Source of the DNA: Vibrio ostreae
GTDB lineage: Bacteria > Pseudomonadota > Gammaproteobacteria > Enterobacterales > Vibrionaceae
Assembly (NCBI RefSeq): GCF_019226825.1
Contig: NZ_CP076643.1
Span: 2,914,001-2,978,000, forward strand
Length of the DNA: 64,000 nucleotides
Direction: 5' to 3'
Of the stretch, positions 1,108-53,649 are shown in pieces. Below the pieces are notes generated by a model, which made no database searches, was not told the origin of the DNA, and saw only the letters and a program-made list of their open reading frames with translations. The stretch's first letter is position 1; each line of letters opens with the position of its first letter. Position numbers and translations under genes: made by a program.

Positions 1108-2511
1108 CTAATACAATTCTTTAAGCTTGCGCGTCAGGGTATTACGTCCCCAGCCAAGCACTTTGGCTGCATCTTGTTTATGGCCGTTAGTATGATTCAA
1201 AGCGGCTTCCAGCAGGATGCGTTCAAATTCCGGCAGAGCATAAGAGAGGATTTCAGTTTCACCAGATGCTAGGGCGGATTTTGCCCAGGCTTCAAGCTGC
1301 TTCTGCCAACTGACATCACTGTCAAAGTCGACCGTTTTCTTCTCTGCCAGTAACTCAGAAGGCAGGTCGCTTGGTAACACTTCGGTACCACTTGCCATTA
1401 CCGTCAGCCAGCGGCACATGTTTTCTAACTGACGTACGTTACCCGGCCAATCGAGACGATTGAGAATTTCGATTGTTTTGCTATGCAGAGTTTTCATCTC
1501 CACGCCTAACTCTTTGGCAGCCAGAGCAAGAAAATGTTTGGTCAGTTTGTCGATGTCCTGACGACGCTCACGCAAAGCAGGAATTTGAATGCGGATGACG
1601 TTAAGACGGTGGAACAGGTCTTCACGGAACTTGCCCTGATGAACCAGTTTTTCCAGATTCTGGTGCGTTGCGGCGACAATTCGCACATCGACTTTGATTG
1701 CGGAATGGCCGCCGACACGATAGAACTGTCCATCGGCCAGTACCCGCAGCAAACGGGTCTGAATGTCGAGCGGCATGTCACCGATTTCATCCAGAAACAG
1801 TGTTCCGCCATTAGCCTGTTCAAAACGGCCCTGACGTACATTGTTGGCGCCGGTAAACGCGCCTTTTTCGTGGCCAAACAGTTCAGATTCGATCAGGTCT
1901 TTCGGGATAGCGGCCATATTGAGGGCGATAAAAGGGTTCTGCGCCCGCGGGCTGTGACGATGCAGAGCATGAGCGACCAATTCTTTACCGGTACCCGATT
2001 CACCGTTAATCAACACTGAAATCGAAGAGCGGGACAGGCGGCCGATGGCGCGAAACACTTCCTGCATTGCTGGCGCTTCGCCGATGATTTCCGGTGTATC
2101 GTAGGTGGGGACCTGATTTTGTGACTGCTCTTTACGCTGTTCCTGACCGTGGGCAATCGCACGTTCAACCAGAGTGAGGGTCTCATCCACATCAAACGGC
2201 TTAGGCAGATATTCGAATGCCCCCTTCTGATAGGCATTTACGGCTGCATCCAGGTCGGAGTGGGCCGTCATGATGATCACCGGGAGCTCTGGTGAGCGCG
2301 AGTGTACCTGATGCAGTAACTCGATTCCGTCGATCCCGGGCATACGAATATCAGAAACCAGTACATCCGGCGTTTCTCGTTCTAATGCCATCAGAACGCT
2401 TTCCGCATCGGAGAAGGTTTCACATTTAATGTTTGCTGACGACAGGGTTTTCTCCATCACCCAACGAATAGAACTGTCGTCATCGACAACCCAAACGTAT
2501 CCTTTACTCAT
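1108..2511 (-). CDS. glnG: Nitrogen regulation response regulator NtrC
   Basis: Sigma-54-dependent activator of nitrogen-limitation genes, phosphorylated by NtrB. With the start at 2511 (MSKGYVWVVDDD) it has 467 residues. The receiver domain covers about 1-120, with the acidic pocket D11/D12 and phospho-acceptor D54 (VSDIRMPG), the same number as in E. coli. The AAA+ domain has Walker A GESGTGKE and the sigma-54 contact loop GAFTGA. The C-terminus is a Fis-type helix-turn-helix. I chose this start over an in-frame ATG 21 bp upstream because GAGGAA sits at the right distance and the homologues begin here. It lies 53 bp downstream of ntrB, probably co-transcribed. Confidence 0.97.
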   Translation of the reverse strand: MSKGYVWVVDDDSSIRWVMEKTLSSANIKCETFSDAESVLMALERETPDVLVSDIRMPGIDGIELLHQVHSRSPELPVIIMTAHSDLDAAVNAYQKGAFEYLPKPFDVDETLTLVERAIAHGQEQRKEQSQNQVPTYDTPEIIGEAPAMQEVFRAIGRLSRSSISVLINGESGTGKELVAHALHRHSPRAQNPFIALNMAAIPKDLIESELFGHEKGAFTGANNVRQGRFEQANGGTLFLDEIGDMPLDIQTRLLRVLADGQFYRVGGHSAIKVDVRIVAATHQNLEKLVHQGKFREDLFHRLNVIRIQIPALRERRQDIDKLTKHFLALAAKELGVEMKTLHSKTIEILNRLDWPGNVRQLENMCRWLTVMASGTEVLPSDLPSELLAEKKTVDFDSDVSWQKQLEAWAKSALASGETEILSYALPEFERILLEAALNHTNGHKQDAAKVLGWGRNTLTRKLKELY

Positions 2512-51867: not shown

Positions 51868-52733
<866 letters not shown>

Positions 52734-52761
52734 TTGCGGCACAAGCGGATTGCGGTATAAT
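52734..52761 (+). promoter_or_regulatory. Promoter of the queuosine-precursor transporter gene
   Basis: -35 TTGCGG (52734-52739) and consensus -10 TATAAT (52756-52761), 16-bp spacer. Start expected near 52768, giving a leader of about 107 nt that ends in the preQ1-I-like element. Confidence 0.65.
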
Positions 52762-52832
52762 CGCCGCCCCATCGCGATTGGCTGAATTTTCGCCGTCCGA
52801 TACGATAATTTATCAGGAAACAGCGTTTTCCA

Positions 52833-52868
52833 TTTGGGTTCCCTCGCCCCCAAACCAAACCAAAAAGG
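52833..52868 (+). ncRNA. preQ1-I-like riboswitch on the yhhQ ribosome binding site
   Basis: Stem P1 TTTGGG (52833-52838) pairs with CCCAAA (52849-52854) across a 10-nt loop TTCCCTCGCC. An A-rich tail CCAAACCAAAAAGG (52855-52868) ends in the Shine-Dalgarno AAGG, 6 bp before the ATG. This size and layout, with GGTTC entering the loop, CCC closing it and an A-rich tail reaching the ribosome binding site, are those of preQ1 class I riboswitches. Loop CC with tail GG would close the pseudoknot and hide the ribosome binding site. The downstream gene imports preQ1/preQ0. Confidence 0.68.
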
Positions 52869-52874
52869 TACAAT

Positions 52875-53549
52875 ATGAGTCCGTTTTCGTCGGCGCAACA
52901 GCGCAAAGCCCTGACCGTTCTGGTCCTGTTTCATTTGATCATTATTGCGTCCAGTAACTATCTGGTCCAGATCCCGTTTACCCTGTTTGGTTTTCATACC
53001 ACCTGGGGCGCGTTTACCTTTCCGTTTATTTTTCTCGCCACAGACCTGACCGTGCGGATTTATGGTCCGGCGCTGGCAAGGCGTATCATCTTTCTGGTCA
53101 TGGTGCCATCGCTGGCGGTGTCCTACCTGTTATCGGTGATTTTTTATCAGGGTCAGTTTCAGGGCCTGGCGCCACTGGGTGAATTTAACCTGTTTGTGGC
53201 CCGGATTGCGATGGCCAGCTTTATGGCCTATCTGTTCGGCCAGATGCTGGATGTGCAGGTGTTTAACCGCCTGCGTCAGATGAAGCAGTGGTGGGTCGCG
53301 CCGACAGCCTCTACCTTGTTCGGTAATGCGCTCGATACGCTGGCATTTTTCGCGATTGCGTTTTATCACAGTCCGGATCCGTTTATGGCCGAACACTGGA
53401 GTGAAATTGCCCTGGTTGATTACAGTTTTAAGCTGATCATCAGTCTGGGCCTGTTTGTGCCGATGTACGGTGTGCTGCTCAACTACCTGGTCGCGAAGCT
53501 GACCAGGTTGAATGAGCCGCAAACGTCGGCGCTGCAGCAGTGCTCGTAA
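52875..53549 (+). CDS. yhhQ: Queuosine precursor transporter (YhhQ family)
   Basis: Inner-membrane importer of 7-deazaguanine precursors of queuosine (preQ0/preQ1), as shown for E. coli YhhQ. 224 residues with about six hydrophobic segments. Family-typical stretches: NYLVQIPFTLFGFHTTWGAFTFPFIFLATDLTVRIYG near the N-terminus, and TASTLFGNALDTLAFFAIAFY in the second half. AAGG lies 6 bp upstream of the ATG. It stands alone and is divergent from gmk. Confidence 0.93.
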   Translation: MSPFSSAQQRKALTVLVLFHLIIIASSNYLVQIPFTLFGFHTTWGAFTFPFIFLATDLTVRIYGPALARRIIFLVMVPSLAVSYLLSVIFYQGQFQGLAPLGEFNLFVARIAMASFMAYLFGQMLDVQVFNRLRQMKQWWVAPTASTLFGNALDTLAFFAIAFYHSPDPFMAEHWSEIALVDYSFKLIISLGLFVPMYGVLLNYLVAKLTRLNEPQTSALQQCS

Positions 53550-53614: not shown

Positions 53615-53649
53615 AAAAAGCCCGGGTCAGTTCAGACCCGGGCTTTTTT
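53615..53649. terminator. Bidirectional terminator yhhQ/actP
   Basis: AAAAAGCCCGGGTC and GACCCGGGCTTTTT arms around AGTTCA. A- and T-runs on both flanks let it serve both convergent genes. Confidence 0.95.

Follow-up and report, generated by a model that had tools for sequence, protein, structure and literature searches.

The question raised by this locus is whether the last 42 nt before the ATG of yhhQ in Vibrio ostreae form a riboswitch that controls the gene and, if so, of which kind. The whole stretch of DNA that was analysed, 64 kb in length, is called the window here and all positions are those of the window. When these 42 nt were read directly in the sequence, they were found to consist of a 6-bp stem (P1), a pyrimidine-rich loop of 10 nt, a linker and an A-rich tail that runs into the Shine-Dalgarno sequence (Table 1), which is the layout that the preliminary description had given. 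3' of the linker the sequence reads AAAAAGGT, the A-tract overlapping the start of the Shine-Dalgarno AAGG, and 6 nt lie between the GG and the ATG at 52875. In the 64-kb window there is one copy of the core GGGTTCCCTNNNCCC, and 100 shuffles gave none.

Table 1. Features at and upstream of yhhQ, in window positions, and what each assignment is based on
Feature	Position	Strand	Basis
Weak -35-like hexamer TTGCGG (spacer to -10, 16 nt)	52734-52739	+	by eye
-10 box TATAAT	52756-52761	+	by eye
P0 hairpin GGAAA-CAGCGT-TTTCC, one base 5' of P1	52816-52831	+	predicted fold
P1 5' strand TTTGGG	52833-52838	+	sequence; covariation
Pyrimidine-rich 10-nt loop TTCCCTCGCC	52839-52848	+	sequence; mapped on E. 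coli element
Anti-Shine-Dalgarno in loop	C52842-C52843-U52844	+	mapped on E. coli element
Presumed specificity base, last of loop	C52848	+	mapped on E. coli element
P1 3' strand CCCAAA	52849-52854	+	sequence; covariation
7-nt linker CCAAACC	52855-52861	+	sequence
A-tract AAAAA of tail, presumed P1 minor-groove strand	52862-52866	+	role by analogy with E. coli element
Shine-Dalgarno AAGG	52865-52868	+	sequence
P2, tail bases paired with loop	A52866-G52867-G52868	+	sequence; both-sided change in L147
yhhQ, queuosine-precursor transporter, 224 aa	52875-53549	+	NCBIfam models

The downstream protein had been taken for an importer of queuosine precursors and this holds, as two NCBIfam equivalog models back the identity and the product scores 372.5 bits with the NCBIfam preQ0/preQ1 transporter model, the curated cut-off of which is 252. 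E. coli requires YhhQ to import preQ0, and yhhQ is under preQ1 riboswitches in various bacteria (PMC5372724). In the genome nearest to the window the yhhQ frame agrees with that of the window over 15 residues, after which it breaks; this copy looks frameshifted and a sequencing error is possible. QueF was found in 6/6 same-genus genomes searched. One genome of the genus (G028) carries two QueF genes above the curated cut-off, and its leader is the only one with a 9-nt loop among the 82 distinct Vibrio leaders in the set of 235 distinct leaders (82 Vibrio and 153 others) that was compared. As for the promoter that had been placed upstream, its consensus -10 box stands, but the -35 hexamer is weak and the pair was not listed by the promoter scan, which requires a better -35. 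From this -10 box transcription would start near 52768. The sequence TATAATCGC was found again in 68 of the 82 distinct Vibrio leaders. Directly 3' of the -10 box is a GC-rich stretch, CGCCGCCC (52762-52769); GC-rich discriminators often accompany stringent control. The interval between the divergent gmk and yhhQ has an inverted repeat, GCCGAGT / ACTCGGC (52669-52675 and 52694-52700), upstream of the promoter of yhhQ, and between yhhQ and the convergent symporter gene there is a strong terminator-like hairpin (53615-53648) that was listed on the minus strand, although by eye T's follow it on the plus strand too.

The element that the 42 nt resemble most is known from E. coli. The yhhQ element of that species is a class I type III preQ1 riboswitch with a KD of 58 nM and a reporter repression of 6.1-fold, its Shine-Dalgarno directly contacts preQ1, and its aptamer is described as the smallest natural one (PMC10622847). 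The marks of type III, of which 293 sequences are reported, almost only in Pseudomonadota, are UU after the P1 5' strand, AC before the 3' strand and pairing of AAGG with the loop (PMC11625349). In the window UU directly follows the P1 5' strand (U52839-U52840), the loop has UCC-type complementarity to the Shine-Dalgarno, the stem, the pyrimidine-rich loop and the A-rich tail have the layout of an H-type pseudoknot, and the site is upstream of yhhQ, as are type III elements in (mostly gamma-) Proteobacteria. The specificity C of the AC mark is present as C52848, and the base 5' of the P1 3' strand is C in 235/235 distinct leaders, but the A is absent from the window, which has CC there instead. 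The corresponding sequence of the E. coli leader is ATTGGG-TTCCCTCAC-CCCAAT ... AAAAAGGT, and in the numbering of its crystal structure U6-U7 map to U52839-U52840, C9-C10-U11 to C52842-C52843-U52844, C14 to C52848 and A27-A28-G29-G30 to A52865-A52866-G52867-G52868. Thus, the two elements have in common the gene, their place on the Shine-Dalgarno, the loop sequence UUCCCUC, the three G-C pairs at the loop and the AAAAAGGU tail, whereas the window element differs in having a loop of 10 and not 9 nt, CC and not AC before the P1 3' strand, a 7-nt linker (a length found in 71/82 distinct Vibrio leaders) and a P0 hairpin adjoining P1. The near identity of loop and tail to those of the E. coli leader supports type III, and from the sequence we consider it very likely that a type III-like riboswitch of the preQ1 family precedes yhhQ. 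The earlier proposal of a preQ1-I riboswitch acting on yhhQ translation is therefore the best reading in the narrower form of the type III subgroup; the general preQ1-I consensus does not fit the window element, and neither does RF00522. Type I and type II elements (RF00522) also have an H-type pseudoknot, an A-rich tail and the same ligand pocket, but their loops are larger and contain purines and less of the Shine-Dalgarno is buried (PMC10622847). PreQ1-II and preQ1-III riboswitches have the same ligand and are partly on transporter genes, but they are larger RNAs with another pseudoknot fold (PMC11625349).

In E. coli preQ0 is excluded by the loop to which the Vibrio form has added a base, so that preQ0 is a possible ligand of the Vibrio switch. 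The loop is 10 nt long in 81/82 distinct Vibrio leaders and in 17/153 outside Vibrio, where 136/153 have 9 nt, and an A precedes the specificity C in just 16/82 Vibrio leaders compared to 131/153 of the others. In E. coli the loop A touches the ceiling of the pocket and is a possible gatekeeper, and the exclusion of preQ0 is ascribed to the phosphate of the neighbouring C12 in this loop (PMC10622847). What also fits is that E. coli YhhQ itself favours preQ0 (PMC5372724). It could then be that the switch is the same but that in the Vibrio form the extra L2 base gives a preference for preQ0, or lets both ligands be read. However, the remaining letters of the pocket are those of E. coli, the element of which prefers preQ1 over preQ0 by 133-fold (PMC10622847), and the 10-nt loop is also found outside Vibrio in the 17 leaders mentioned above. 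We regard a changed ligand as unlikely, and type III with preQ1 as its ligand is the reading followed below.

The preliminary description had proposed the Rfam PreQ1 covariance model as a check, and this check came out negative. RF00522 (PreQ1), the gathering cut-off of which is 39 bits, found nothing at E<=10 when 501 bases with the window leader were searched, so that the window element does not reach this cut-off; at E<=10 it gave no match to the E. coli yhhQ leader either, and when all Rfam families were searched over the 64-kb window none reached its cut-off. Because RF00522 also misses the E. coli element, the failure is not evidence against the element in the window; it shows that RF00522 covers type III poorly and that, as a refuting test, it is a false negative for type III. 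Over 61 relatives RF00522 gave weak matches (E<=10) in 58/61 and a match above the cut-off in 1/61, and in the control E. coli genome there was one weak match somewhere and none at the yhhQ leader. The sole relative above the cut-off is a genome of the same order (G045), in which the 43-bit match is at C22:93079-93123, away from its yhhQ on C6. In that genome no match was found with R1, a covariance model made from 24 leaders with that of the window included, and the match on C22 is another preQ1 subtype on another gene. A second model, R2, was made from 25 leaders, one of them that of E. coli and all of them from outside the genus, which keeps this test free of circularity. R2 matched the window at 52833-52869 with 35.0 bits and an E-value of 1.4e-5, the E-values being rough, and aligned to the element with one extra loop base; there was no second match below E 1 in the 64-kb window.

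The conservation of stem and tail among relatives, which the preliminary description had also proposed to check, was borne out. In the best 55 of the 223 same-genus loci by protein match, the leader has GGGTTCCCT and then AAAAAGGT in 55/55. The motif, searched with R1, was found in 223/227 genus genomes, a count of presence in the genome for which adjacency to yhhQ was checked in only part of them, and yhhQ was found in 223/227 as well; the same four lack both (G026, G080, G131 and G219, two of about 1 Mb and two incomplete). In an order-wide draw R1 matched at E<=0.1 in 203/394 genomes, chance matches included, and in a class-wide draw in 16/369 genomes, where four of the 16 precede yhhQ and a fifth, in the nearest genome, does likewise by coordinates. 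When 75 model matches were examined, the 61 with the loop all preceded yhhQ (61/61) and the 14 without it never did (0/14). No other gene was found under the motif among these 75, as none of the 14 without yhhQ has the GGGTTCYCT loop, and the one nearest to the loop among them (L097) is in sequence that by eye looks coding. The species genomes were also scanned with the pattern GGGTTCCCTNNNCCCN{2,14}AAAAAGG. Among the 118 matches listed, 115 are no more than 40 nt from a yhhQ start, and the three without yhhQ are L187 and L191, which were taken as chance, and L231, where the locus ends. The matches listed are from enterics, Pseudomonas, Halomonas, Aeromonas, Shewanella, Haemophilus, Herbaspirillum and Chromobacterium and also from MAGs labelled Desulfofustis and Desulfobulbaceae; viral contigs gave 0 matches.

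This association bears on the possibility that what is conserved is a structured ribosome-binding site the reader of which is not a queuosine precursor but an sRNA, a protein or temperature. In favour of it, the loop is complementary to the Shine-Dalgarno, and that the RNA of the window binds a ligand is an argument by analogy. However, the E. coli counterpart does bind preQ1 (PMC10622847) and the motif precedes yhhQ at 115 of the 118 matches listed, so that another reader seems very improbable to us.

The preferred explanation, a type III switch on yhhQ, would work as follows, the ligand, the direction of control and the contacts being taken from the E. coli element. When there is enough preQ1, either from conversion of preQ0 by QueF or from uptake, the ligand would stack atop P1 and pair with the loop cytosine, and C52842-C52843-U52844 would pair with A52866-G52867-G52868 in an H-type pseudoknot. 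The Shine-Dalgarno would thereby be hidden, ribosomes could not start and less transporter would be made, and without ligand the tail would loosen and yhhQ would be translated. Control by transcription termination instead of translation is less probable still. There is one terminator-like site on the plus strand, at 52913-52925, but it is inside yhhQ and has 5 pairs, 0.5 such sites are expected in shuffles, and the Shine-Dalgarno itself is part of the pseudoknot. Other pairings were tried and rejected. For switching by a pairing between the loop and the upstream leader, no excess complementarity was found (mean z +0.22, SE 0.13, 45 leaders); the linker CCAAA as a second partner of P1 failed by eye, as stems reading TTAGGG or CTTGGG have no matching copy; and a P1 moved by one position, in which a C bulges out and a 9-nt loop is left, gave -0.8 compared to -4.5 kcal/mol.

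The region does not stand out by its folding energy, the z being +0.13 for the hairpin and -0.39 for the leader, and it is therefore on conservation and covariation that the argument depends. Across the 235 distinct leaders no change is seen in the three G-C pairs adjoining the loop, and where the outer pairs of P1 are formed the fourth is UA, CG or AU, the fifth is UA, AU, GC, CG or GU and the sixth is UA, CG, AU or GU. In two alignments the P1 covariation score was higher than in 500/500 shuffles and than in every slid version, with the caveat that kinship among sequences can beat shuffles without any structure. Of the five covariation measures, two are unremarkable when set against shuffles: both-sided changes were reached by 72/500 shuffles in the first alignment and 96/500 in the second, and further pair types by 479/500 and 142/500, respectively. 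In the first alignment the P2 columns were set one off, so that its P2 rows are void and its whole-structure figures take them in; the second alignment, scored for P1 only, does not have this fault. P2 is mute on covariation because it is nearly invariant. One both-sided change in P2 was found, at L147, where a loop C to U goes with a Shine-Dalgarno G to A. At this locus (1509-1545, minus strand) the Shine-Dalgarno part reads AAGA and a second AGG precedes the ATG, which looks like a shift of the ribosome-binding site to outside the switch. In another genome of the genus (G229, locus L090) the same Shine-Dalgarno G to A is found with the loop unchanged, and P2 is broken. That the element is a chance stem next to an ordinary A-rich ribosome-binding site deserves hardly any credence, as chance could account for the folding energy alone and for the RF00522 miss but cannot account for the conservation in 223/227 genus genomes, the P1 covariation and the match of the out-of-genus model R2.

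The second feature by which the Vibrio leaders stand apart is the P0 hairpin. In predicted folds, a hairpin of at least 4 bp ending 0-3 nt before P1 was found in 40/45 non-redundant Vibrio leaders (non-redundancy being set at 70% ungapped identity, at which some kinship remains), compared to 19.3 (sd 3.6) in shuffles with a largest value of 28 in 40 rounds, and in 24 of the 40 the gap between P0 and P1 is 2 nt. The upstream 36 nt of the Vibrio leaders have a mean z of -1.77 (SE 0.20), and the pairs of P0 vary in type at each of five positions, which is a count of diversity in predicted folds and not an independent test. Outside Vibrio a hairpin at the same place was found in 39/134 non-redundant leaders compared to 53.1 in shuffles, although the folds of the upstream 36 nt of these leaders are slightly more stable than those of shuffles (mean z -0.82, SE 0.12), and in the predicted fold of the E. 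coli leader no hairpin abuts P1. The available sections of PMC10622847 and PMC11625349 do not mention such a hairpin. As a guess, P0 may serve as a support under P1, as a spacer or as protection of the 5' end. The element is filed as a clade variant of type III rather than a textbook member, as judged from its letters, because of the 10-nt loop and the missing A of AC, which concern the loop that is held to exclude preQ0 in E. coli. A broader and quite tentative reading is that Vibrio fixed a distinct type III form with P0 beneath P1 and an extra L2 base by which the A next to the specificity cytosine is mostly lost, which may read preQ0 or both ligands and in which P0 may tune folding; we think it doubtful.

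In the literature on preQ1 riboswitches with yhhQ or Vibrio we found no study of a Vibrio yhhQ switch; McCown et al. 2014, who reportedly defined type III, may list Vibrio. In the available part of the review PMC11625349 the only mention of Vibrio is a glycine riboswitch. In the part available of a 2022 survey, PreQ1 is named in 15/60 pathogens and is blank for E. coli, Salmonella and V. cholerae (PMC9495176), and the Rfam model may well be the cause of these blanks, as the standard model misses the Vibrio form along with the crystallised E. coli element. What the Vibrio leaders carry is very probably the E. coli switch in a form the loop of which is slightly longer, and practically the whole genus Vibrio would have a preQ1-type translational switch on yhhQ. 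The loops of 9 nt and 10 nt that are found in nature offer a ready test of what determines the selectivity between preQ1 and preQ0.
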